From NCBI RefSeq assembly GCF_000024405.1, contig NC_013517.1, positions 3,503,989 to 3,567,988 on the forward strand: a stretch of DNA of 64,000 nt, read 5' to 3'. The position numbers and the translations under genes were made by a program. The notes under the pieces were generated by a model. It worked only from the letters and a program-made list of their open reading frames with translations. It made no database searches and was not told the origin of the DNA. Source of the DNA: Sebaldella termitidis ATCC 33386. GTDB lineage: Bacteria; Fusobacteriota; Fusobacteriia; Fusobacteriales; Leptotrichiaceae. Positions 3,023-25,113 of the stretch are shown here, piece after piece. Position 1 is the stretch's first letter, and each line of letters begins with the position of its first letter.

Positions 3023-4015
3023 TTAAAATAATCCTAAACCTATTAAATACGCTATAATAACTGCAAGCGGTCCAGTCAGCTGGCGTGAAAGAAGAACTGC
3101 CGGGGTTCCTATTTCTATAGTTTCCGGTTTAGCTTCCTGCATAGACATTCCCACGGGCAGAAAATCCGCACCGACCTGAACATTTATTGCAAATAGTGCC
3201 GGCAATGCAAATACAGGACTTATTTCTCCCGCACCGATCTTAGCCCCTATAAGAACACCCACTACCTGTGCAATAGCAGCTCCGGGTCCTAATATAGGCG
3301 ATAAAAAGGGAATACCGCATATAAGTGCCAGTACTACAAGACCTATAATAGAGCCTGAAAGCGGAGTAAGAAGCTTTGCTATTGTTGTTCCTATTGCAGT
3401 GGAATTTATTATTGCTATAAACACACTGATAAATGCCATAAAAGGAACAACAGTTTTTATCATTATATCCACAGCCTCTTTCCCTGACTGAAAAAATAAT
3501 GTCACTACATTTCCTATATTCAATCCGATTTTTTCAATAAGTCTCAAAAATGAAAACTTTTCTGTTCTTTCCATACTCTCCATTTTTTTTACCACAGCAT
3601 CTTCTATACTGTCTTTAGTTCTTTTTTCTGCCGTCCCGTTTTCTTTCATGCCGGAAACCAATTCCAGATTACCCTCACGCACATCTGAAACATATATATC
3701 CTCAAGTATAAATTCAGCTAAAGGCCCTGACTTCCCTACAGGTGTCACATTAATAGTAGGCACCCTTTTTTTAGGATATATACCGCATCTTAGTGTTCCT
3801 CCACAGTTTATTATTACACAAAGTATTTCAGTATCCTGAGGTGTGTGCTTAAAACCGTTGACTACTTCCAATCCCAGCATTTCCGCGATTTTTTCAGCCA
3901 CAGGATCTATAAAATTTCCAGTCATTGACACTATTTTTTTTTCGGGTTCATTTTTCAGATAAAGTGGTCCGCCCCATCCGTTGGAACCTCTGGATACCTT
4001 AAGTATTTTTTCCAT
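3023..4015 (-). CDS. srlE: PTS glucitol/sorbitol-family IIB (IIBC) component
   Basis: A 330-residue protein starting MEKILKVSRGSNGWGG, the typical opening of glucitol IIB, followed by a cytoplasmic IIB domain containing TLRCGIYPKK; the cysteine is the expected phosphorylation site. After a linker (about residues 120-160) comes a membrane domain rich in glycine and proline helices, ending IAYLIGLGLF. The SrlE family has this length and arrangement. AAGGAGG precedes the ATG. It sits between the IIA gene and the dehydrogenase gene with short gaps, giving a IIC-IIA-IIB operon. The sugar is presumably a hexitol, but specificity cannot be read from sequence. Confidence 0.9.
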   Translation of the reverse strand: MEKILKVSRGSNGWGGPLYLKNEPEKKIVSMTGNFIDPVAEKIAEMLGLEVVNGFKHTPQDTEILCVIINCGGTLRCGIYPKKRVPTINVTPVGKSGPLAEFILEDIYVSDVREGNLELVSGMKENGTAEKRTKDSIEDAVVKKMESMERTEKFSFLRLIEKIGLNIGNVVTLFFQSGKEAVDIMIKTVVPFMAFISVFIAIINSTAIGTTIAKLLTPLSGSIIGLVVLALICGIPFLSPILGPGAAIAQVVGVLIGAKIGAGEISPVFALPALFAINVQVGADFLPVGMSMQEAKPETIEIGTPAVLLSRQLTGPLAVIIAYLIGLGLF

Positions 4016-4033: not shown

Positions 4034-4405
4034 TTAGAAATCATCTTTTATTATAAATTTCTTTAGATTTTTTACAGCAAGAGCTGATCTGGCTTTAGTT
4101 ACTGCTATATCTCCTGGATTTTCAGCCTCATCACTTCCTGAGAACTTTACAGTCAAATGTCCAAGTTCCCTGAGGTTCTCCGCAGCCTTGCTGCCCACAG
4201 CAGTTATGATAAAAACTTCATTATCAAAATAGACTAAATTACCTTTTTTCACATCACCTGTCAGACCTTTTTTGATTCCCAGACATAAACAGTAATCTTT
4301 AAAGTCTTCGGGACCGCTGTTTATAAAAGTTATTAAATACCCCTCTTCACAGCTCTCTTCTGCAAATTTTCCCACACTTGTTATATCTGCCTCATATAAA
4401 ATCAT
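4034..4405 (-). CDS. srlB: PTS glucitol/sorbitol-family IIA component
   Basis: A 123-residue cytoplasmic protein of the usual length for glucitol IIA. Recognisable family stretches are LITFINSGPEDFKDYC near residues 25-40 and ITAVGSKAAENLRELGHLTVKFSG near 70-95. In this family, IIA takes phosphate from HPr and passes it to IIB. An AGGTG ribosome binding site lies just before the ATG, and the gene is 18 bp from both of its operon neighbours. Assignment rests on the characteristic sequence together with flanking srlA- and srlE-type genes. Confidence 0.88.
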   Translation of the reverse strand: MILYEADITSVGKFAEESCEEGYLITFINSGPEDFKDYCLCLGIKKGLTGDVKKGNLVYFDNEVFIITAVGSKAAENLRELGHLTVKFSGSDEAENPGDIAVTKARSALAVKNLKKFIIKDDF

Positions 4406-4423: not shown

Positions 4424-4960
4424 TTATGCAGTCTTAGCCTGTATATTTCTTCTCTTTGATAAAAATACAAATATTATTTCGGTAATAAACCCTCTCATTA
4501 ATCCGACAATTACTCCGGCTATAATATATCTTATTGCAAGTCCTGAAACAGGGAGTCCGATCTTCTTTATCCCTTCTGCCACACCAAGCCAGATAAAAAG
4601 CTCAGACGGAACAACATGGGGAAATAAGGCTGTAAGCGGATGGGCTGTTGCCCCTAAGGCATCCTGATATCCCGGCTTACATTTTTCCGGAAGAAATCTC
4701 CCTACTGTAAGAGCACCCGGACTGCTGAAAAAGAACCATGCAAAGCTCGGAAGTATTCCATATGTAAGTATCTTTGACTTACCGAAAATTCTTGCCACAT
4801 TATTGATTTTATCTTCTCCTATAATCTTGATAATAAAATTAATTGTGGTAAGAAGTACTATAAGCATCGGTACAGAGCCTTTTACCATTCCCACGAGAGT
4901 AAGTCCTGCTTCCTGAAATAATGCTATAAAACTCTGTGCAAAATTAGTAATAAATTCCAT
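4424..4960 (-). CDS. srlA: PTS glucitol/sorbitol-family IIC component
   Basis: A 178-residue integral membrane protein with several hydrophobic helices and the family motif around PSFAWFFFSSPGALTVGRFLPEK, followed by HPLTALFPHVVPSELFIW. Length and motifs match SrlA, the smaller membrane subunit of glucitol permeases. It is the first gene of the operon, behind AGGAGG and a TTGACA/TATATA promoter about 100 bp upstream. The 269-bp upstream region is shared with the divergent Rep_3-like gene and holds the paired T-rich elements described separately. Confidence 0.9.
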   Translation of the reverse strand: MEFITNFAQSFIALFQEAGLTLVGMVKGSVPMLIVLLTTINFIIKIIGEDKINNVARIFGKSKILTYGILPSFAWFFFSSPGALTVGRFLPEKCKPGYQDALGATAHPLTALFPHVVPSELFIWLGVAEGIKKIGLPVSGLAIRYIIAGVIVGLMRGFITEIIFVFLSKRRNIQAKTA

Positions 4961-5057
4961 AAAATAAACCTCCTGTTTTTATTTATAAATTTAATTGAAA
5001 AATTTATTTTAAAGTTCTATAATTAGACATAGCACTCTAAAGTTTTTTCATACCCAA

Positions 5058-5086
5058 TATATACCCTGATCTCAAACCATTGTCAA
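5058..5086 (-). promoter_or_regulatory. Sigma-70-type promoter of the glucitol PTS operon
   Basis: Read on the minus strand, TTGACA (5086-5081) and TATATA (5063-5058) are separated by 17 bp. They lie about 100 bp upstream of the srlA start. The proximal T-rich CGTCT element starts 27 bp upstream of the -35 hexamer. Confidence 0.7.
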
Positions 5087-5113
5087 ATAAGGATTCTTTA
5101 CACTTTATTACAT

Positions 5114-5192
5114 CTTTTTTTCGTCTTTCTTAAATATCATTATTTGATTATATACAGCTCAGGGAAAATTCAAACGACTTTTTTTCGTCTTT
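5114..5192 (+). promoter_or_regulatory. Pair of identical T-rich CGTCT elements (glucitol locus)
   Basis: The 15-mer CTTTTTTTCGTCTTT occurs at 5114-5128 and again, identical and in the same orientation, at 5178-5192. The CG dinucleotides are 64 bp apart, about six helical turns. Both copies lie in the intergenic region between the PTS operon and the divergent Rep_3-like gene, on that gene's coding strand. A related pair precedes the second Rep_3-like gene at 19580-19675. I infer a binding site for the neighbouring protein, comparable to plasmid iterons; binding itself is not shown by the sequence. Confidence 0.6.
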
Positions 5193-5229
5193 ACTCCGAA
5201 CAAAAAATTTTTAAAAAAAGGAAAAAAAT

Positions 5230-6339
5230 ATGAATCAAAAATTTTCGTTATTATCCGAAAGGCACTATTATGTAGATATCAGCCCACGAATAACTTCACG
5301 TGAAAAAAAACTTTTACTTTATGTTTTTGAAACATATAAAAAATACAGAAAGAATCCTGTAAAGCTTTCATCTGAAAAAATTCCCGCAATATTAAATGAA
5401 GAAAAAAAGGATCTGAATATTTTTCTGGAAAAACTCTCAAAAAAAAGAGTAACCTACTGCCTAAAAAATTTATACGGTTTCTCCTCTTTATTTGCCAGTG
5501 TTATTAATGTTTCAGAAAGTCTTTCCTTTTATCTTTCACATGAAATTACAGAATCCTTTAATTTTGGAACTAAATTTTATAACTATGATTTCAAATCCTT
5601 TTTTCTTTTTAATGAGAAAAGCTCACCTTTGTTCTTTCTTGAAATTTTGAAAAGAAAAAAAGTTACTGAAAATGAAATCATCATATCTATTTCAGATTTG
5701 AAAAATATATTAATGATTGAAAATGCATATGACAGGTTTTATGATTTTGAGAGATATATCTTAAAAAAAATTTTTTATGATGTGAATTTGTTTTCCAGAT
5801 TTAATTTTTCCTATGAGAAGATAAAAAAGGACGGACGTATTTCCGGATTAAAGATTTTATTTGATGACTTTGAATCAATTCAGGAAAATCCTGATATTAA
5901 TCATCTTATTTCCCTTGCAAAGGATCATACGGAAAATTACAAAAAGCTTCTGGAGCTTGTCAGCTCTGCCTTGAAAATAAAAGATACAGAAACAGTAAAA
6001 AAAGAGATTATTTTTTCGATCGAAAGCTATACACAAAATTTTGACAGATTTCTTGAAAAAGTTTTTAACGGAAAAATTGATATTTATGAAGATTTGAATA
6101 TTGTGAATTATTATGAAAAGGAATATTCCAATTTTTATACTTTTCAGTCTGATGTAATAAAAGAACTGAAAAATCACACGGAGAACCGATCTTTACTTGA
6201 ATATCTCAGTCTTTCCTATGAATTATACAGTTTTTTCTACGGGAAACAGTCTTCTTATACGAAGCTTATTCATAATATTATTCTGAAAATCCTTAAGATA
6301 GATTCTGTTTTTATTGTGAAGTTTATTTATAAGATTTAA
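5230..6339 (+). CDS. Rep_3-like (plasmid replication-initiator fold) protein, putative PTS-locus regulator
   Basis: A 369-residue soluble protein. Residues about 145-215 read like the second winged-helix part of Rep_3 initiators: a strand, then ISDLKNIL, YDRFYDFERYILKK, and a strand pair (FNFSYEKIKKDGRISGLKILF). Known Rep_3 proteins of this type (RepE, pPS10 RepA) start plasmid replication at iterons. The roughly 150 C-terminal residues are lysine-rich, helical and not recognised. The protein at 19887-21083 is a clear paralogue, sharing the LKNIL...RFYDFE(R/K)YILKK block. There are no plasmid maintenance genes nearby; instead it is divergent from the glucitol PTS operon, with two iteron-like repeats between them. 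A regulatory role is inferred from that context. AAGGA lies before the ATG. Confidence 0.65.
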   Translation: MNQKFSLLSERHYYVDISPRITSREKKLLLYVFETYKKYRKNPVKLSSEKIPAILNEEKKDLNIFLEKLSKKRVTYCLKNLYGFSSLFASVINVSESLSFYLSHEITESFNFGTKFYNYDFKSFFLFNEKSSPLFFLEILKRKKVTENEIIISISDLKNILMIENAYDRFYDFERYILKKIFYDVNLFSRFNFSYEKIKKDGRISGLKILFDDFESIQENPDINHLISLAKDHTENYKKLLELVSSALKIKDTETVKKEIIFSIESYTQNFDRFLEKVFNGKIDIYEDLNIVNYYEKEYSNFYTFQSDVIKELKNHTENRSLLEYLSLSYELYSFFYGKQSSYTKLIHNIILKILKIDSVFIVKFIYKI

Positions 6340-6413: not shown

Positions 6414-6734
6414 TTATTCCATGGCTTTTTTGGCATAATCTATATCAATCTGCATATCTATATCCGGATATTTTTTCTGAAGATTTTCCAGACATTCTAT
6501 AAATTTCCAGCTTTGCAGCTTTTCGGATATATCATCAAAAACTTCAGATATCCAATATGCTTTATCTTCTTTACAATATCTCTCAAAATATTCTATTGTA
6601 GTCTTCTTATCCTTTGAAAAAATTTCAGTCAGTTCTTCCCATATTCTGTATACACTTGGGTCATTAGGATGCAGCTGTCGTCTTTTTTCTATAAGTTTCT
6701 CTATTTTATGATTATTAAACATTCCCGTTTTCAC
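6414..6734 (-). CDS. Small conserved-looking hypothetical protein
   Basis: A 106-residue acidic, helical, cytoplasmic protein without signal peptide or membrane segment. The C-terminal half (FDDISEKLQSWKFIECLENLQKKYPDID followed by an IDYAKKAME end) looks like a conserved domain, but I cannot name it. The start is probably GTG at 6734, preceded by AGAGG at good spacing; an ATG at 6722 lacks a proper site. The start lies inside the 3' end of the endonuclease V gene (20-bp overlap), so the two are likely translationally coupled. No function is proposed. Confidence 0.6.
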   Translation of the reverse strand: MKTGMFNNHKIEKLIEKRRQLHPNDPSVYRIWEELTEIFSKDKKTTIEYFERYCKEDKAYWISEVFDDISEKLQSWKFIECLENLQKKYPDIDMQIDIDYAKKAME

Positions 6735-7413
6735 TTAATTCCTCTCTCATCACATGGGTTTCAAGATCAGCCAGTCTTACAGGAACAGGAAGCCGGCTTT
6801 CACCGTTAATAAAGCTCATGGTTATCTCCATGGCAGTATCCAGCTCTATCCAGTTCCCGCATGAGACAAATACAGGCTTTACATCCTTCCGGGTTCTCAA
6901 TACTCTGCCATATACTTCATTGTTTATCACAATATCTGTATATGCCCCTACTGTATTTTCCGGCATGATAAACTCCGTATTCTTTATCTTCAAATAACTT
7001 TTAGCTATCCCAATTGTAGGTTTTTCAAGATGAAAAGATGCATGTGTAGCTATTCCCATATGAGTATAGTGAAGATATCCGTTTCCGTCAAACATATAAA
7101 TATCAGGATCACTAACTAGCTTAGCTTTGGCTTCCATTACCAGCGGCAGCTCTCTGAATGCGAGAAATCCCGGGATATAAGGAACTGTTATCTCTCCGCT
7201 GCTCCATACCTTCTCTTTTACCTCTCTGCTGTGAAAATCTACCACGACTATACAGCAGACAGCGAAATGTTTCCCGTCCTGATCCCAGTAGCCGAGATCT
7301 ACTCCTGCCACGAGCTTTATATCTTTCATTCCAAAATTATTCTTTAGTTCTATTTTCCCAGCAAGATTTTGCTGTATATTCATAAACTTCTTTTTTATAC
7401 TATCTATCCCCAT
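6715..7413 (-). CDS. nfi: Endonuclease V (deoxyinosine 3' endonuclease)
   Basis: A 232-residue protein with the endonuclease V signatures in order: AGVDLGYW near residue 37 (first metal-binding Asp), VPYIPGFLAFRE near 80 (wedge motif with the catalytic Glu), and DIYMFDGNGYLHYTHMGIATHAS near 105-130 (second Asp, active-site region). In known members it nicks DNA at the second phosphodiester 3' of deoxyinosine, starting repair of deaminated adenine. AAAGGA precedes the ATG. The gene overlaps the small hypothetical gene downstream. Confidence 0.93.
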   Translation of the reverse strand: MGIDSIKKKFMNIQQNLAGKIELKNNFGMKDIKLVAGVDLGYWDQDGKHFAVCCIVVVDFHSREVKEKVWSSGEITVPYIPGFLAFRELPLVMEAKAKLVSDPDIYMFDGNGYLHYTHMGIATHASFHLEKPTIGIAKSYLKIKNTEFIMPENTVGAYTDIVINNEVYGRVLRTRKDVKPVFVSCGNWIELDTAMEITMSFINGESRLPVPVRLADLETHVMREELSENGNV

Positions 7414-9482: not shown

Positions 9483-10238
9483 TTATTTAAATGGGTGTGT
9501 TTTATAAACACTGTCAGCATCTTTAAGCAGCTTGTCAGCCTGTGCCTTACTATCAGCAAACGGCTGTCCGTAAACAAGTGTTCTTCCTAACATAACACCT
9601 GCGAAATATTCCTCCCAGCTGTTATAATCATTTTTAGCCTGAGTGACAGCTTTATTAATATAATCCCACATTTCCTGCTCAGTTATATAACCTGCACTGT
9701 GTGAAAATCTTGCCACATTTACAAGTCTGTCATAATCCCATGCACTTATTGTCTTGATTCCGTCTACTTGCTCTGCTGTGTAACCGTAGTTGTCTACAAG
9801 ATTTTTCTTTACATCTTCATAAGCCTGAAATTCTTCTGTATTTTTTTCAGCTGCTTCCGGTGTTCTTAATTCTGTCAGCATAGGATCTCCTTCTGCTCTG
9901 TGTCCCTCTGCCAAAAGACTCTCCAGAGTTTCCTTTGCAGTTGCTGTATCAGTTACTTTCCATGCGCTTCTTAATACCTGAATACTTGCATCTTTATATT
10001 CCTCAGCCTCTAAGTCATCAAAAGACATATCGTTTCTTGTAGTTAATACTGCCCCGAATACCAGTGCATTTTCCTGCTCTTTTGTAAGCTTTCCTTTTGC
10101 CTCTTCCTTAGCCGGAGCTGAAGATGTCTCAGTCTGGGCAGCAGTATCAGCCGAATCTGTTTTTTCCTCTTTCCCTTTACACGAAACTATTGTAAGTACA
10201 ACGAATAATCCAATTAATAACTTTGTTTTGTTTTTCAT
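9483..10238 (-). CDS. DUF1266-like lipoprotein
   Basis: A 251-residue protein with a lipoprotein signal (lipobox IVSCK, Cys at residue 20) and a low-complexity Ser/Ala/Glu/Lys linker to about residue 50. The mature domain has the DUF1266 pattern: SAWKVTDTATAKETLESLLAEGHR, later ISAWDYDRLVNVARFSHSAGYITEQEMWDYI, and YNSWEEYFAGVMLGR near the end. The function of this family is unknown; in most members it is a mainly helical domain. AAAGGAGAG precedes the ATG. It has no obvious operon partner, since the next upstream gene on this strand is separated by a terminator. Confidence 0.75.
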   Translation of the reverse strand: MKNKTKLLIGLFVVLTIVSCKGKEEKTDSADTAAQTETSSAPAKEEAKGKLTKEQENALVFGAVLTTRNDMSFDDLEAEEYKDASIQVLRSAWKVTDTATAKETLESLLAEGHRAEGDPMLTELRTPEAAEKNTEEFQAYEDVKKNLVDNYGYTAEQVDGIKTISAWDYDRLVNVARFSHSAGYITEQEMWDYINKAVTQAKNDYNSWEEYFAGVMLGRTLVYGQPFADSKAQADKLLKDADSVYKTHPFK

Positions 10239-17257: not shown

Positions 17258-18580
17258 TTATGCACTAACTGCTGCCTGCTCTTCTTTTAATTTTTGCGCA
17301 TCCATTATTTTAAAGAATGGATAATATATAAAGAAAGTCAATACCATACTTATTACCTGTATTACTCCTCCGGATATACTCGCCGTAGCCAGTGCCCCTC
17401 CGAGAACAGGCGGTGTTGTCCATGGTATCGCTATACCTGCGAGTCTTGACACCAGTCCTAATTTCATTGACCAGTATGTTATTGTAATTACCACTACCGG
17501 TGACAGTACAAACGGTATCAGCATAAGCGGGTTCATTACTATAGGAAGCCCGAAAAGAATCGGTTCATTAATATTGAAGAATGCCGGTCCTACAGCCAGT
17601 TTTCCTATTTCTTTCAGCTGTTTGCTCTTTGAGAAGAGGAATAATATTATTGCAAGTGAGAATGTAGATCCTGATCCGCCCATTGACTGGAATATATCAA
17701 AAAACTGTGTTGTTACAACGTGAGGTAATTCTGTTCCTCTTGCTCCTGCCATATAAGCAGCATTATTTTCCGCCATAAGCTTATAAGTTACCGGAGAGAT
17801 TATTCCCATTATAAGGGCTGCACCGTGAATTCCCGTCATCCACAATAAGTGAATAAGCAGTGTTACTACGAGAGCTCCCCAGTATGTTCCTCCGATTTTT
17901 GTAAGCGGTCCTACCAGTATTACTCTTACTATATTATGCATATCCTCAAATGGAGTGTACATTAATCCAAGTCTGATTATCCATACTACAGTTAATATTA
18001 TCATTCCCGGAATCAGGGCTGCGAATGACTTTGCCACTGCAGGCGGTACTCCGTCAGGCATTTTTATAATAATATCTTTTTGTACAATTATTCTGTATAT
18101 TTCCACAGTAAATATTGACATTATCAAACCTACGAATAATCCTCCACTGTCTAAAAAGCTAAATGCGATTCCGCCTACAGTGCCTATTTCTTTACCGTCT
18201 TGTAAAAACGGGATGTTGTAAGGTGTTACAAGAACGAAAGTACATAAAGACAACACTGCCCCTGTAAGCGCATCTACATTATATTTTTCAGAAAGTCTGT
18301 ATGCTATACCTATACAGGCTATTACTCCCATTAGTCCGAAGGATGCTGTTACCGGATACCCCAGCTTTTCAGCTATTCCTGTTTCCGCCAGCCATTTTGT
18401 GTATGCCGGTATCGGAAAGTTTCCTATTATTAAAAATACTGATCCTATTATTGTAAGCGGCATTGTAACTATAATTCCATCTCTTATTGCCTGAACATGT
18501 TTTTGATTTCCTATTCTTCCTGCTACAGGCATTAAATGTTTTTCCAGAAATCCTATAACCCCGTCCATTGCTCCTGCCAT
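17258..18580 (-). CDS. chbC: PTS cellobiose/chitobiose-family IIC component
   Basis: A 440-residue membrane permease of the lactose/cellobiose IIC type, with about ten hydrophobic segments. Family marks are GVIGFLEKHLMPVAGRIGNQKHVQAIRDG at the N-terminus, HLLWMTGIHGA near the middle (substrate-binding region) and FNINEPILFGLPIVMNP. Start at ATG 18580 is supported by GAGGAGG; a frame extension of five codons has no site. It is separated from the IIA gene by 207 bp, unusually long inside this operon, with a hairpin just after the IIA stop. Confidence 0.92.
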   Translation of the reverse strand: MAGAMDGVIGFLEKHLMPVAGRIGNQKHVQAIRDGIIVTMPLTIIGSVFLIIGNFPIPAYTKWLAETGIAEKLGYPVTASFGLMGVIACIGIAYRLSEKYNVDALTGAVLSLCTFVLVTPYNIPFLQDGKEIGTVGGIAFSFLDSGGLFVGLIMSIFTVEIYRIIVQKDIIIKMPDGVPPAVAKSFAALIPGMIILTVVWIIRLGLMYTPFEDMHNIVRVILVGPLTKIGGTYWGALVVTLLIHLLWMTGIHGAALIMGIISPVTYKLMAENNAAYMAGARGTELPHVVTTQFFDIFQSMGGSGSTFSLAIILFLFSKSKQLKEIGKLAVGPAFFNINEPILFGLPIVMNPLMLIPFVLSPVVVITITYWSMKLGLVSRLAGIAIPWTTPPVLGGALATASISGGVIQVISMVLTFFIYYPFFKIMDAQKLKEEQAAVSA

Positions 18581-18756
18581 AATATTCCTCCTCAATTTCT
18601 ATATATAATATTATACTAAAATTCTTTAACATCTTCATCAAAAAACAATGATAATTATGCATAAAATTAATGTTTTAAGGAATAAAATTCCAAACTTATG
18701 GACATAATACCCCTGTTATAAAGTTTATCTGCCCAAGTTCTTGGAATTTATTTATA

Positions 18757-18777
18757 CAGGATAAATTTCATATCCTG
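18757..18777 (-). other. Hairpin after the IIA stop codon
   Basis: CAGGATA and TATCCTG form a 7-bp stem with a seven-base loop, located about 10 bp after the chbA stop in the 207-bp gap before chbC. There is no T tract downstream on the minus strand, so it is more likely to be a processing or stabilising hairpin that separates the small soluble PTS genes from the permease gene. Confidence 0.5.
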
Positions 18778-18787
18778 CAAAAAAGCT

Positions 18788-19111
18788 TTAACCCTCCAGA
18801 GCATCCACTCTTTTATATAAATCTATCATTTCTATTACCATATCTTTGAACAGAATTGACCCCATCAGATGATCCTGTGCATGAACCATTATAAGACCCA
18901 GCTCTACTTTTTCTCCGCCTGCTTCCTTTGTTATAAGATCTGTCTGTATTTCATGTGCTTTCAGCATCTCTTCATTTGCTTTCTTTATATAGCTGTCAGC
19001 TTCTTCAAAGTTACCGACCTTTGCTTCTCTCAAAGCCTGAAAAGAATAGCTTTTACTTTCTCCTGCATGACCTATTAAGCTCATTGCAATCATTTCTATA
19101 TCCATTTCCAT
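18788..19111 (-). CDS. chbA: PTS lactose/cellobiose-family IIA component
   Basis: A 107-residue helical cytoplasmic protein of the usual length for lactose/cellobiose IIA. The phosphorylation site is in MVHAQDHLM (His77), with the metal-binding Asp80 that holds the trimer in known members. Other family marks are SLIGHAGESKSYSFQALREA and AHEIQTDLI. It carries phosphate from HPr to the IIB protein encoded just upstream. The gene lies 45 bp after chbB. Confidence 0.93.
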   Translation of the reverse strand: MEMDIEMIAMSLIGHAGESKSYSFQALREAKVGNFEEADSYIKKANEEMLKAHEIQTDLITKEAGGEKVELGLIMVHAQDHLMGSILFKDMVIEMIDLYKRVDALEG

Positions 19112-19156
19112 ATGTCATCTCCTAAATAATAAATTTATATTTACATTTTCAAAAAA

Positions 19157-19462
19157 TTAACCGATTAATTTCAAAGCCTGTTCCAAAACCTTTGGCCCGT
19201 TCATCATTCCGTAATCCATCATATTTATTACATCAATAGGTATTCCTTTTTCATCAGCCACTTTTTTCAGATCGCTTAATGCGTATTTTACCTGCGGACC
19301 TAATAAAAGTACATCGGCATTTCCTACGTGATCTCTTACTTTTTCAAGCGGCTCTGCCCAAACTTCTGTTTCAATTCCCTGTTCATCTGCAGCCTTTTTA
19401 ATTTTTGTCACAAGCAGACTTGTAGACATCCCTGCTGCGCAGCATAATAAAATTCTTTTCAT
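19157..19462 (-). CDS. chbB: PTS cellobiose-family IIB component
   Basis: A 101-residue protein beginning MKRILLCCAAGMSTSLLV; Cys8 before A-A-G-M-S-T is the phospho-acceptor of the lactose/cellobiose IIB family. DVLLLGPQVKYAL and the terminal IDVINMMDYGMMNG are also typical. It is the promoter-proximal gene, preceded by GAGGAGG and a TTGACA/TATTAT promoter about 70 bp upstream. The 424-bp upstream region is shared with the second, divergent Rep_3-like gene and contains the second pair of T-rich CGTCT elements. Confidence 0.93.
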   Translation of the reverse strand: MKRILLCCAAGMSTSLLVTKIKKAADEQGIETEVWAEPLEKVRDHVGNADVLLLGPQVKYALSDLKKVADEKGIPIDVINMMDYGMMNGPKVLEQALKLIG

Positions 19463-19579: not shown

Positions 19580-19675
19580 TTTTTTCGTCTGCTTTTTTCT
19601 GATAAAAATTTTATTTTTGCCGTTTTTAAGCTTTTTATTCTTAAATCTTCAAAAAAAATATTGTTTTTTCGTCTG
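19580..19675 (+). promoter_or_regulatory. Pair of identical T-rich CGTCT elements (cellobiose locus)
   Basis: The 12-mer TTTTTTCGTCTG occurs at 19580-19591 and 19664-19675 in the same orientation. Each is followed by another T run. The CG dinucleotides are 84 bp apart, which is eight turns of B-DNA. The core TTTTTTCGTCT is shared with the pair upstream of the first Rep_3-like gene, but the base after it differs (G here, T there), so the elements match better within a locus than between loci. Confidence 0.6.
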
Positions 19676-19886: not shown

Positions 19887-21083
19887 ATGCTAAATATATA
19901 TAATTCCCAACAGTTTAATTTTCTAAAAAAACATAATTTTTCAGTTTTTACAAATAAATCATTAAATAAGAAAGAAAAAAAATTTTTAAAAACCCTTTAT
20001 ATCAGCTGCGGTATTATCGATAAAAATAACTCGGAAATATCCTATAAAACCGAAGATATATTAAGTATTTTAAATTACGATTCCATCGCACGTCTTGAAA
20101 AATTTCTTAATAATATTATCAGTAAAAGAGTTTTTTACAGAATTGAGGAGGATAACAAACTTCTGCAGAACGGGAGCTTCGGAATTATAAACTCTTATTC
20201 TGTATATAAAGGCAAGGTCTATTTTCTTCTTTCCGAAGAGATACTCCTATCTTTTGTGGAAAAGACTCTTTTTTCATACCTGAAAATAGATAAATTTATT
20301 TTTATGGAGGAAAATTTCTCTTATAATCTTTATTTATATCTTATTCCGCTTTTTTATAATCAAAAAGAAGTAAATATCGAACTGGATAAGCTCAAAAATA
20401 TACTTAATGCCGAAACCAGCTATGAAAGATTTTATGATTTTGAAAAATACATTCTGAAAAAAGCAATTGAGGATATAGTAACTTTCAGTAAATATAATCT
20501 TTCATATTATAAGATGAAAACCGGAAAAAACATAAATAACAAGGTTACCGCAATAAAATTCATACTTAACAATAAAAAACCCGGCAATTACTTTGATGTA
20601 AAATATGCTGCCAATGAACTCCTGAATATGGTTAAGTCTCACATAACCAATATAAATGAGATGTACGAGCTTATTCTTCTTTATATAGTAAAAAGAAACT
20701 ATGACTATGTACTTCTCAATATAAAATATGTACTTGCCAATTATACCGACAATATAGAAAAGCACCTGAAAAGAGCTCTTTTATACGATCTCGGCAATAC
20801 TGAAAAAACAGATAAATATACACTTTATGTAGAGGATATTGCACACTTTAAGACACCTTTTATACTTCAGATGAATCTTTGGAGACATTTGAATAAAGTC
20901 AGCAGTGAAATTCCTGATTACGATGATGTAAACAGACTTTATTACTCAGATTTTTTCAAAAAAATAATAAAGCTTAAGGATAAGGAAGAGTTTGATTTTA
21001 CTAATGATTCTGTGAGAATATTCATAAAATATAATGTAAAAGAGGAAAGTATTATCAGAATATATATTCATAAGGAAGTATAG
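19887..21083 (+). CDS. Second Rep_3-like protein, putative PTS-locus regulator
   Basis: A 398-residue soluble protein, paralogue of the one at 5230-6339. The strongest shared block is residues 166-192 (LDKLKNILN, then YERFYDFEKYILKK), followed by a strand pair (YNLSYYKMKTG... VTAIKFIL), matching the second winged helix of Rep_3 plasmid initiators. The N-terminal part (about 25-135) would be the first winged helix. The C-terminal half is helical and unrecognised. There are no partition, mobilisation or copy-control genes nearby. It is divergent from the cellobiose PTS operon and shares the 424-bp control region. AAAGGAG precedes the ATG, and an MmcQ-like gene follows 34 bp downstream. Confidence 0.65.
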   Translation: MLNIYNSQQFNFLKKHNFSVFTNKSLNKKEKKFLKTLYISCGIIDKNNSEISYKTEDILSILNYDSIARLEKFLNNIISKRVFYRIEEDNKLLQNGSFGIINSYSVYKGKVYFLLSEEILLSFVEKTLFSYLKIDKFIFMEENFSYNLYLYLIPLFYNQKEVNIELDKLKNILNAETSYERFYDFEKYILKKAIEDIVTFSKYNLSYYKMKTGKNINNKVTAIKFILNNKKPGNYFDVKYAANELLNMVKSHITNINEMYELILLYIVKRNYDYVLLNIKYVLANYTDNIEKHLKRALLYDLGNTEKTDKYTLYVEDIAHFKTPFILQMNLWRHLNKVSSEIPDYDDVNRLYYSDFFKKIIKLKDKEEFDFTNDSVRIFIKYNVKEESIIRIYIHKEV

Positions 21084-21902: not shown

Positions 21903-23693
21903 TTAATATATATTCTTATCTTTCAAAACAGCCAATGCAGTCTCTGCTGCTTTTTTCCCGCCTGCATCATCCTTTCCCTGAATATTCACGGCAAAAATAA
22001 ATACATTATCTTCCTTTTCCACAAAGCCCACAAACCAGCCGTTTACATTCTTTCCGTTTACTGCTCCGGTTCCTGTTTTTCCATAAAGGGCAGCTTTGTT
22101 ATTTTCTGATAATTTCATTGCATTTTTTACAGTTTTTATGTTTTTATTACTGAAATCCAAACTGCCTGTATAAAAATTTTTCAGCAGTAAAACCTGCTCC
22201 ACCGGAGAAATCCGTAAAGAAGAACCCATCCAGTAATCTGATATATCTCCGGCAAGATTATAATTTCCGTAGGCTATTTTTTTATAATAAGAATAAAGCT
22301 GTTTTTTCCCGGCTTTTTTATCGATTTCCTGAAAATACCAGTTTACGGAATTTCTTAATGCACTTTCAAGAGTCTGATCCTGATCCCACACTTGATAAGG
22401 ATTCTTTTTCCCGTCCCATTTCATAACAGAATCATCATTTTTTATTATTCCCAGCTCCAGCCCGATAAGTGCGTCATATATCTTATAGGTAGAATCAGGT
22501 GCTGTTCTGGTGATACTTTTATCCCTGTTATAAATAAAATACTGATCATTTTTCATGTTATATAAAACAAAGCTTCCGTTAAATCCCCTGAAATAAGTGC
22601 TGAGATCTTCATAAACAATATTTTTTCCCCGAAAATCATACTTTTCAGTATAAGCCATCTGTGTTACAGCCGGAATCTGACTCAGCAAAAAAACACTCAG
22701 TCCCGTAAAAACAAAAAAACTCTTTATTTTCATGCTGATTGTTTCTCTGGTATAAACCGCTATTTTTTTTATTCGCTTTTTGAGTTCTTTTTTAGTTCCT
22801 CCCAAACTTGCTGTCATAAACATGTGAGGAGTTTCAGATAATTTTGTTATAAAATTTATAATAGTATATCCGTAATCATGAAAAGAGGTTTCATCAAGCA
22901 CTTTCAGCACTGCAGCATCGCAAGCTATTTCTCTGTCAATGCGTATCTGCTTAAAAATCAGCCATATCAGCGGATTAAACCAGTAAATAACCTGAAAAAA
23001 CAGCATTATCCAGTTAATCAAAACGTCCCTGCTTTTATAATGATTCAGTTCATGTAAAAAAATATATTTTATCTCTTTTGAGCTGAACTGCTCGGATATT
23101 TTTTCAGGAAGTACGATATATGACCGAAAGACTCCCATTGTTACCGGAACCCGGGTAAGAGAAGACGTCCCCATCACAGGTTTCTTGCTTATTTTAAGTA
23201 TATTGCAGCATTCCGCATAAAGATCGTTTATTTTCTTATCTCTCACAAAAATTAGTGATTTTCCGATTTTTCCAAGTCTAAAACTGCCCATAATTATGAG
23301 AAATAAAAATATGAAAATTCCGGCAGCCCATACTCCTATCAAAAATAAGACAATATATTCAGGCATTGAATGATTGGCAGATACGCCAAAATCCTGAATC
23401 CAGTCAGCAGCATGTACTAAAGTCCCGCTTCTGTCGTTTCCCGCCATTCCGATTTCTGTAATCTGACCTGCATTCAGCTTATGAAACGTAAAATTATTCA
23501 AAACTCTGTAATCAAAAATTCTGCTTGGTATAAAAGGTACAGCTAATATTAACAGAAATAAAAAATCAGTATTATTCTGCCATTTTGCAGTAATATGTTT
23601 TTTAAATATACCTTTTATTCCCAGAATAACTAAAATAAAAACAGATATTGTAAAAGAATTCATCAAAAAACAGATAAAATTCGTCCTGATCAT
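21903..23693 (-). CDS. blaR1: BlaR1/MecR1-family beta-lactam sensor-transducer
   Basis: About 596 residues. The N-terminal half has membrane segments and an M56 metalloprotease domain with FLHELNHYKSRD (zinc H-E-x-x-H) and a downstream INWIMLFFQVIYWFNPLIW helix. The C-terminal ~250 residues are a penicillin-binding sensor related to class D beta-lactamases: DSTYK (acylated Ser and carboxylatable Lys), NSVNWYF, YGN and KTGTG. In the staphylococcal paradigm, acylation activates the protease domain, which cuts BlaI. Start at ATG 23693, one base after the blaI stop, with AAGGGG upstream; translation of blaI and blaR1 is probably coupled. Confidence 0.93.
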   Translation of the reverse strand: MIRTNFICFLMNSFTISVFILVILGIKGIFKKHITAKWQNNTDFLFLLILAVPFIPSRIFDYRVLNNFTFHKLNAGQITEIGMAGNDRSGTLVHAADWIQDFGVSANHSMPEYIVLFLIGVWAAGIFIFLFLIIMGSFRLGKIGKSLIFVRDKKINDLYAECCNILKISKKPVMGTSSLTRVPVTMGVFRSYIVLPEKISEQFSSKEIKYIFLHELNHYKSRDVLINWIMLFFQVIYWFNPLIWLIFKQIRIDREIACDAAVLKVLDETSFHDYGYTIINFITKLSETPHMFMTASLGGTKKELKKRIKKIAVYTRETISMKIKSFFVFTGLSVFLLSQIPAVTQMAYTEKYDFRGKNIVYEDLSTYFRGFNGSFVLYNMKNDQYFIYNRDKSITRTAPDSTYKIYDALIGLELGIIKNDDSVMKWDGKKNPYQVWDQDQTLESALRNSVNWYFQEIDKKAGKKQLYSYYKKIAYGNYNLAGDISDYWMGSSLRISPVEQVLLLKNFYTGSLDFSNKNIKTVKNAMKLSENNKAALYGKTGTGAVNGKNVNGWFVGFVEKEDNVFIFAVNIQGKDDAGGKKAAETALAVLKDKNIY

Positions 23694-23694
23694 A

Positions 23695-24081
23695 TTATTT
23701 CCCCTTCTTGTCTTTTTCCATATCAAGAATTTTCTTTAGTTCATTTATATCATTTTCCGTAAGCTTATCCTGTTCCAAAAAGTTAACTACCATAGAATTC
23801 AGGGCACCGTCATAAAATTTATTCAAAAAGCTGCTGCTTTCCTGTTCCACATAATCTTCCTCTTTTATCAGCGGAGTATACACAAATACTCTCCCCTCTT
23901 TTTTATAGCCTATCGCACCCTTTTTTACCAATCTCGAAAGCAGTGTCTGTATTGTCTTAGGCTTCCACGAGCTTTCAACTGTGAGAATTTCAGTAACTTC
24001 CTTTGTACTCACAGGGGCTTTGTCCCAAATTAATTTCATAACCTGATATTCTGCTTCTGAAATAGAAAATGAATTTTTCAT
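23695..24081 (-). CDS. blaI: BlaI/MecI-family repressor
   Basis: About 128 residues. The N-terminal winged helix is clear: ISEAEYQVMKLIWDKAPVSTKEV, then WKPKTIQTLLSRLVKKGAIGYKKEGRVFVYTPLI, closely following BlaI/MecI. The C-terminal ~45 residues form the dimerisation helices. ATG 24081 is preferred over an upstream TTG because GGAGG lies 5 nt before it. In this family a dimer binds TACA-N2-TGTA palindromes; three such palindromes lie in the divergent intergenic region. BlaR1 cleavage would relieve repression. Confidence 0.94.
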   Translation of the reverse strand: MKNSFSISEAEYQVMKLIWDKAPVSTKEVTEILTVESSWKPKTIQTLLSRLVKKGAIGYKKEGRVFVYTPLIKEEDYVEQESSSFLNKFYDGALNSMVVNFLEQDKLTENDINELKKILDMEKDKKGK

Positions 24082-24096
24082 AACAGCCTCCAATTC

Positions 24097-24108
24097 TTAC
24101 AAATGTAA
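24097..24108. promoter_or_regulatory. BlaI-type operator 3 (blaI side)
   Basis: TTACAAATGTAA is a perfect palindrome around two central bases. It lies between the blaI -10 (TATAAT on the minus strand, 24121-24116) and the blaI ribosome binding site, a position suited to autorepression of blaI-blaR1. Confidence 0.85.
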
Positions 24109-24168
24109 TAAATTTATTATACCACAATTTCAAAGGGATTATAAGTAATTTTTTTATAAAAATTTTTC

Positions 24169-24197
24169 TTGACAAATTTATCTTACAAGTGTAAGAT
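24169..24197 (+). promoter_or_regulatory. Beta-lactamase promoter overlapping BlaI operator 1
   Basis: TTGACA (24169-24174) and TAAGAT (24192-24197) are 17 bp apart. The 18-bp palindrome ATCTTACAAGTGTAAGAT (24180-24197), with perfect 8-bp arms, covers most of the spacer and the whole -10. Repressor binding here would block RNA polymerase directly. Confidence 0.88.
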
Positions 24198-24205
24198 ATA
24201 AAAAA

Positions 24206-24217
24206 TTACATATGTAA
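24206..24217. promoter_or_regulatory. BlaI-type operator 2 (bla side)
   Basis: TTACATATGTAA is a perfect palindrome, 23 bp centre to centre from operator 1 and just downstream of the expected bla transcription start. Two adjacent operators on this side would give tight repression. Confidence 0.82.
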
Positions 24218-24279
24218 GATTTAATTTTAAAGAGTATTATAATAATACTTATTTCTATCAAAATAATAAGGAGAAAATC

Positions 24280-25113
24280 ATGAAAAGAATTCTATTAGTT
24301 ATTATGCTGGCTTTTTCTACTATTCTGTGCAAAGCCCAGCCAAAATCAGAAAATACTGTTAACAATGCTGCTTCCGGAGGAATCCAGGAGGAAAATCTTC
24401 AAAAATACTTTGACGATCTGAATATAAAAGGAAGTATTACCATTTATGATTATAAAAATAAAAAATGGTACTATAGCGACAAAAAAGACTCAGAGAAACG
24501 AACTCTTCCGGCCTCTACCTTCAAAATACCAAATTCACTGATAAGCATTGAAGAATATGCTGTAAAAGATGAAAATGAAGTTTTGAAATGGGACGGAGTT
24601 ATAAGAGAATTTCCAGCACATAATGCAGATACAGACTTAAAAACTGCTTTTAAAAATTCCACTGTCTGGTTTCACAGGGAAATGTCAAGAAGGGTCGGAA
24701 TTGATAAATACAGAAAATATCTGAAAGAATTTAATTACGGAAATCAAAAGCTTTCAGGAATACCGGATTATTTCTGGCTGGATAATACACTTGTTATTTC
24801 ACCTGCTGAACAAATAAATTTCTTATCCGGGCTTTATGATGAAAAATATCCGCTTTCAAAAAGAACCTATAATATTGTAAAAAATGTAATGATTGAGAAA
24901 AAGACAGACTCATATACCTTAAGAGCCAAAACCGGAAGCGGATTGGTAAAAACTCTGGATATAGGCTGGTATGTTGGTTATATAGAAACCAAAGACAATG
25001 TTTATTTTTTTGCTACAAGATTACAGCAGGACGAACCTGATAAAAATGATGATTTCCTGAATCTGAGAAAAACTATTACTTTTAATATTTTTCAGGATAT
25101 GGGAGTTATGTAA
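24280..25113 (+). CDS. Class D (OXA-type) beta-lactamase
   Basis: A 277-residue protein with an N-terminal export signal; Cys17 in STILC may be a lipobox. All class D motifs are present: ASTFK (Ser79 nucleophile, Lys82), STV (127-129), YGN (153-155) and KTG (217-219). Such enzymes hydrolyse penicillins and related beta-lactams in the periplasm; the exact spectrum cannot be read from sequence. The gene is divergent from blaI-blaR1 and its promoter carries two BlaI palindromes, so expression should be inducible. Base composition does not differ visibly from the neighbours and no mobile element flanks the locus. Confidence 0.94.
   Translation: MKRILLVIMLAFSTILCKAQPKSENTVNNAASGGIQEENLQKYFDDLNIKGSITIYDYKNKKWYYSDKKDSEKRTLPASTFKIPNSLISIEEYAVKDENEVLKWDGVIREFPAHNADTDLKTAFKNSTVWFHREMSRRVGIDKYRKYLKEFNYGNQKLSGIPDYFWLDNTLVISPAEQINFLSGLYDEKYPLSKRTYNIVKNVMIEKKTDSYTLRAKTGSGLVKTLDIGWYVGYIETKDNVYFFATRLQQDEPDKNDDFLNLRKTITFNIFQDMGVM

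Follow-up and report, generated by a model that had tools for sequence, protein, structure and literature searches.

Chromosomal Rep_3 proteins beside PTS operons in Fusobacteriota: a putative regulator family related to plasmid replication initiators

Rep_3 plasmid initiators, among them RepE of F, π of R6K, RepM and lactococcal RepB, have the same two-winged-helix fold as the chromosomal proteins described here, and their genes are accompanied by an autoregulatory palindrome and direct repeats. Plasmid Rep proteins repress their own genes. Work on π and RepA as repressors is cited in PMC4980987. The initiator fold also occurs outside small plasmids, in RctB of Vibrio chromosome II; RctB works in replication, whereas the genes described here have no origin-like array.

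Mobile-element transcription factors that have been co-opted by their hosts include Ner/SfsB and antitoxins, SfsB also in connection with a sugar; these are Xre or RHH proteins, unlike the Rep_3 proteins considered here, and plasmid initiators are not named in the passages on co-opted factors that we consulted (PMC8987985). The classical regulators of PTS operons (PRD, DeoR, GntR and LacI types) take up the same divergent local position as our proteins but have another fold and another operator. Co-option of mobile-element transcription factors is already known, as are Rep_3 proteins. What would be new is a family of PTS regulators derived from Rep_3 initiators; we found no description of one in the literature searched, outside which most subscription papers lie.

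A Rep_3 protein encoded divergently from the srl operon

Within the window, the 64,000-nt stretch of the Sebaldella termitidis chromosome that we analysed, the gene at 5230–6339 (plus strand) encodes a 369-aa protein in which an earlier note had recognised similarity to Rep_3 initiators. Pfam PF21205 (Rep3_C, corresponding to the second winged helix, WH2) matches residues 153–210 with E = 6e-9 and 36.5 bits, against a cut-off of 21.1. PF01051 (Rep3_N) does not match this protein, and among its paralogs gives a single sub-threshold match; the first winged helix (WH1) seems too diverged for that model, the tandem fold being the stronger test. A profile built from the ten S. termitidis paralogs (A1) aligns with RepE of F (1REP, 2Z9O) across both winged helices with E ~5e-10. 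Consistent with this, a fold search with the AlphaFold2 model of the 5230–6339 protein gave Z 14.3 for RepE54 (1REP; residues 16–215 aligned), Z 14.0 for R6K π and Z 7.0 for RctB. The tandem WH1–WH2 fold of RepE and π, encoded here by 5266–5877 on the plus strand (residues 13–216; pLDDT mostly 85–95), is present according to both the two-domain profile and the predicted fold. We conclude that the product is a true Rep_3 protein, which bears out the earlier note. No classical PTS-regulator domain (PRD, DeoR, GntR or LacI type) was matched in this protein or its relatives.

The winged helices are followed by a C-terminal domain (residues 217–369; 5878–6336, plus strand) that is characteristic of the family and for which we built a profile, A3. 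In 98 genomes, A3 matches only frames of this family; mobile-element Rep_3 relatives are without the domain, and the mobile-element copies of genome G063 have no match to A3. The domain of a second family member in the window was modelled as four helices followed by a small α/β unit (pLDDT 88). Comparison with solved structures returned only weak matches (best Z 5.2) and no clear PDB match; we adopted none of them, and absence from the match list excludes nothing. In the 5230–6339 protein the domain is diverged after about residue 280: the last 80–90 residues depart from the paralogs, with a poor match over the final strands of its C-terminal unit, so that sensing by this protein may be altered. 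The ortholog from another Sebaldella genome (L086), which has the same length, shows the same kind of match there.

Some shorter family members, of about 300 aa, keep just the second half of the A3 domain. Members of this length were seen at L126, L131, L134, L148 and L150, those matched by A3 keeping only the α/β half, and opposite several of them is a Lac-type PTS operon with an asparaginase-like gene. The C-terminal domain was not found in 398 genomes of the phylum of Anaerosalibacter, and in the phylum of a Thermosipho metagenome-assembled genome (103 genomes) A1 detected nothing beyond the mobile-element copy already known; neither set contains a known regulator as a positive control.

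As the earlier note had stated, and as Pfam confirms, the gene lies back to back with a glucitol PTS operon on the minus strand. This consists of srlA (EIIC; 4424–4960; EII-GUT, E = 1e-69), srlB (EIIA; 4034–4405; PTSIIA_gutA, E = 1e-27), srlE (EIIBC; 3023–4015; EIIBC-GUT_N and _C) and, as its last gene, a Gfo/Idh/MocA-type dehydrogenase gene (1963–2991; E = 3e-31). Just downstream of the 5230–6339 gene, an Endonuclease V-like protein is encoded on the minus strand (6715–7413; by eye).

The second member in the window (19887–21083, plus strand; 398 aa) is divergent from a Lac/cellobiose-type PTS IIB-IIA-IIC operon (17258–19462, minus strand; PTS_IIB and PTS_EIIC by Pfam, IIA by eye). For this operon, Pfam was run on the stretch L032, to whose positions 10011 is added to give window positions. 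Beyond this member lie BlaR1-like and BlaI-like genes beside a class D β-lactamase-like gene (21903–25113, or L032 11892–15102; by eye).

Rep3_C scores above its cut-off in ten proteins encoded on the S. termitidis chromosome, which has 4,418,842 bp, the larger plasmid having 54,160 bp (PMC3035275); the ten are the 5230–6339 protein and its nine chromosomal paralogs, all of which match. The second PTS locus that the earlier note had pointed out is therefore real and is joined by eight more. All ten genes start divergently from a sugar operon: nine face PTS operons of six types (Gut at 5230–6339, Lac/cellobiose two, Glc two, Fru one, Man two, Asc/Gat one), and the tenth faces an operon of Gly_rich_SFCGS/DUF4310-4312 type (SFCGS), whose transport type is unsure. 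One of the two Man-type operons sits behind a DgaE-like gene. Representatives of these neighbours were checked with Pfam. By a rough estimate, if about 70 PTS operons lie among 4,210 genes, the chance that a random gene faces one is below 2 percent; the arrangement is far beyond chance. Given that the genome has 44 PTS_EIIC (PF02378) genes, the Rep_3-like proteins would serve a minority of PTS operons.

The ten copies are all chromosomal and lie among ordinary genes, in no mobile-element or maintenance-gene setting. No partition or mobilisation genes were seen by eye among their predicted neighbours, in agreement with the earlier note, which had seen no partition, mobilisation or toxin–antitoxin genes near the 5230–6339 gene. 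The resident 54-kb plasmid has a separate, canonical Rep_3 gene (PF01051, E = 6e-17).

Distribution and neighbours across Fusobacteriota

Relatives matched by A1 occur in 54 of 98 Fusobacteriota genomes, representing 17 of 29 genera. Stretches were taken around a large part of these relatives, picked irrespective of their neighbours, and the divergent genes were then classified by means of similarity clusters, which were labelled by eye and checked with Pfam through representatives. Leaving out two members cut by contig ends, 96 could be assessed. For 84 of these, the divergent genes belong to a PTS EII operon (Lac 49, Man 14, Fru 9, Glc 7, Asc 3, Gut 2); of the remainder, eight face Dga/SFCGS-type operons, three face ABC-transporter genes and one faces a GH1 gene. 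Hence the position beside PTS operons in relatives is not random, a point on which the earlier note's proposal depended. On a quick protein tree, operon type changes 15 times, whereas shuffling gives 52.5 changes, and a branch with support 99 separates the mobile-element copies from the others.

Homology to initiators could mean that these genes are silent copies or remnants of integrated plasmids, that is, initiators that ended up in the chromosome without taking on any part in regulation. This might seem to be supported by a 664-kb Cetobacterium replicon, the only plasmid record matching the 5230–6339 protein at E <1e-5, whose copy is annotated as a 'replication initiation protein' (GO:0006270). 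However, that copy also faces a Man-type PTS operon. Moreover, remnants would not be expected to keep open frames across a whole phylum, to lie beside PTS or Dga/SFCGS operons at the frequencies given above with a PTS type that follows the protein tree, or to be accompanied by a motif phased to the PTS promoter in place of a 22-bp iteron array (see below). We consider the remnant explanation highly improbable.

Two single loci were noted in the survey. One genome of the same family carries a decayed regulator copy with 16 in-frame stops (G071:C1:770631-771710), which points to loss there. At L026:7263-9605, a LevR-like activator gene adjoins a member, and a Man-type PTS operon lies on the other side; two regulator types meet at this locus.

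A shared motif and its helical phasing

The two identical 15-bp repeats that the earlier note had reported between the gene and srlA are present: CTTTTTTTCGTCTTT lies at 5114–5128 (TTTCGT core at 5119–5124) and again at 5178–5192 (core at 5183–5188), both on the plus strand, and the 4.49-Mb genome contains no further exact copy. The two operator-like sites are 64 bp, or six helical turns, apart, and the first is 33 bp upstream of the -35 hexamer of the predicted sigma70 promoter of the srl operon (5058–5086, minus strand; TTGACA at 5081–5086, 17 bp, TATATA at 5058–5063; hexamers read from the sequence). Upstream of the second window member, two TTTTTTCGTCTG sites (19583–19672, plus strand; cores at 19583 and 19667) are 84 bp, or eight turns, apart.

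When the 96 shared intergenic regions were pooled, TTTTCGTC was the one strong common word besides ribosome-binding and -35 sequences, occurring in 50 regions where dinucleotide shuffles predict 2.0. The motif had first been read as TTTTTTTCGTCTTT of the 5230–6339 locus; the pooled analysis gave the general core TTTCGTC instead. This core is found in 60 of the 96 shared regions but in just 2 of the 631 remaining intergenic regions at these loci, and some family regions are without even an exact TTTCGT.

Motif copies in the same orientation are 52–96 bp apart overall, with spacings near 52, 64, 73, 84 and 95 bp. These spacings follow a period of 10.5 bp (R = 0.72, p ~5e-5, phase 0.1 bp, n = 19). 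One value was used per 60%-identity cluster; the clusters are not fully independent, and the p-values are approximate. The motif is also placed with respect to the predicted PTS promoters, which are near consensus: 18 of the 38 clusters have an ACGAAA core, on the PTS strand, whose end is 20–24 bp upstream of the -35, whereas random placement predicts 1.08 clusters and reached at most 7 in 5000 trials. A site at this distance is positioned near -61.5, the start sites being, like the promoters, predictions. About half of the clusters have no such site; in others the upstream site is 10, 13 or 33 bp from the -35, in steps of roughly one turn, 33 bp being the distance at the 5230–6339 locus. In many clusters the second site coincides with the predicted promoter of the regulator gene or lies just past it, and in some that promoter has inverted pairs (ACGAAA-N13/14-TTTCGT). 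We conclude that TTTCGTC is a conserved, helically phased, operator-like motif of the shared intergenic region, for which there are no binding data.

A class-I activator would fit the upstream site, whose distance and phase to the PTS -35 are fixed: a protein bound there, on a constant helix face upstream of a near-consensus promoter and centred near -61.5 in most clusters that have the site (about one turn further at the 5230–6339 locus), would contact RNA polymerase. Autorepression fits the second site, which lies whole helical turns away at or just after the regulator's own predicted promoter, as with plasmid Rep proteins, although this placement is unclear at the 5230–6339 locus; a loop might perhaps form between the two phased sites. 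Activation is, however, not the only direction that can be inferred. Near-consensus promoters are unusual for strongly activator-dependent transcription, which counts against activation and leaves repression by looping open. GalR at gal represses by looping until sugar arrives. Similarly, a protein at the upstream site of a PTS operon could loop to the second site and block both promoters until sugar arrives, a variant of the regulatory reading that would make use of the helically phased pairs of sites around the divergent promoters. Against it, the PTS promoter is clear of the upstream site, whose fixed phase to the -35 suits polymerase contact; we regard looping repression as possible but less likely than activation. 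For the direction of the effect, we lean slightly towards activation of the PTS operon.

Iteron cores in mobile-element relatives and a proposed origin of the family

Among relatives without PTS neighbours, the nearest resemble initiators of mobile elements. L146 has three tandem Rep_3 copies, an integrase-like gene and 22-bp repeats (AAAAGACGAC); L082 has 22-bp repeats (AAGACGACAAAATCGGGA); L071 has repeats of AAGACGAAGGAATCTGACATTT, with a GACGA palindrome located at a TATAAT; and L079 has 22-bp repeats, one reading GACGAGAAAAAGTT, together with a GACGA palindrome. Such palindromes stand at the promoters of the mobile-element genes themselves. GACGA, the core common to all four loci, is the reverse complement of the TCGTC of the regulators' motif. 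Several mobile-element relatives have in common with the regulators both this core and the WH2 block Y-x-R-[FI]-Y-D-F-E-[KR]. The block, as Y-x-R-F-Y-D-F-E-[KR], is common to L071, L075, L079 and L082; since these loci were fetched by that very pattern, only the agreement in the DNA core is independent. L146 has another WH2 block and the same GACGA core. The Rep_3 gene of the resident 54-kb plasmid was weighed as the donor, but it has no GACGA repeats nearby, which makes a different Rep_3 lineage more likely.

The motif is common to operons of different sugars, as would be the case if it belonged to some other global PTS regulator, such as a catabolite regulator, with the Rep-like gene a mere neighbour. 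Such a regulator would not account for the near absence of the motif from the other intergenic regions of the same loci, nor for a core identical to that of the iterons at mobile-element Rep_3 loci away from PTS genes, and we think this explanation very unlikely.

Regulators differ from plasmid initiators in being chromosomal, multi-copy and PTS-adjacent, in having the extra C-terminal domain, and in having promoter-phased sites instead of a 22-bp iteron array. As few as two cores at 20–24 bp were seen in just 1 of 96 regions, and no 17–22 bp direct-repeat (iteron) array lies beside 5230–6339, where there are instead the two sites 64 bp apart. These observations bear on whether the proteins initiate replication locally beside PTS operons or act at a secondary origin, as their initiator fold, resembling that of RctB among others, could suggest. 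Given ten dispersed copies on one chromosome and two lone sites 52–96 bp apart rather than iteron arrays, we find an origin function scarcely credible.

We conclude that the product of 5230–6339 is very probably a transcription regulator with sequence-specific binding, whose ancestor was a Rep_3 initiator of a plasmid or mobile element; binding, expression and mutant data are lacking. Most likely, a Rep_3 initiator lineage gave rise to a phylum-wide family of PTS transcription regulators in Fusobacteriota, with the iteron half-site kept as operator. Homology, position and the iteron-like motif support the earlier note's suggestion of an initiator recruited as a sugar regulator, regulation itself being inferred from sequence. 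The two winged helices of the initiator would be retained as the DNA-binding part, with the conserved WH2 most likely reading the TTTCGTC core. The added C-terminal domain (a helical bundle and the small α/β unit) most likely receives a sugar or PTS signal, an inference that extends to the inducer. More tentatively, one conversion event of a Rep_3 plasmid initiator may have founded the family and preserved the control logic of the initiator itself, with lone direct sites activating the transport operon, inverted pairs or phased partners repressing the regulator's own gene, and the C-terminal domain switching between the two in response to sugar or the state of PTS phosphorylation.

If this is correct, a plasmid replication initiator has become a family of metabolic transcription factors in whose operators the iteron half-site is still visible, and the step from initiator autoregulation to regulation of a neighbouring gene becomes experimentally accessible. 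It would also provide testable predicted operators for many Fusobacteriota PTS operons, and would mean that the label 'replication initiation protein', carried by at least one member in public annotation, hides a regulator family.

Two of the mobile-element loci have further features. The near-identical tandem Rep_3 copies and 22-bp GACGA iterons at L146:4548-17410 (G063, Fusobacteriota) form an integrated array of an iteron-type element. In Anaerosalibacter, the Rep_3 gene at L075:7803-8273 is split, with only its second half in frame and a GACGA palindrome upstream, and looks decayed or frameshifted.
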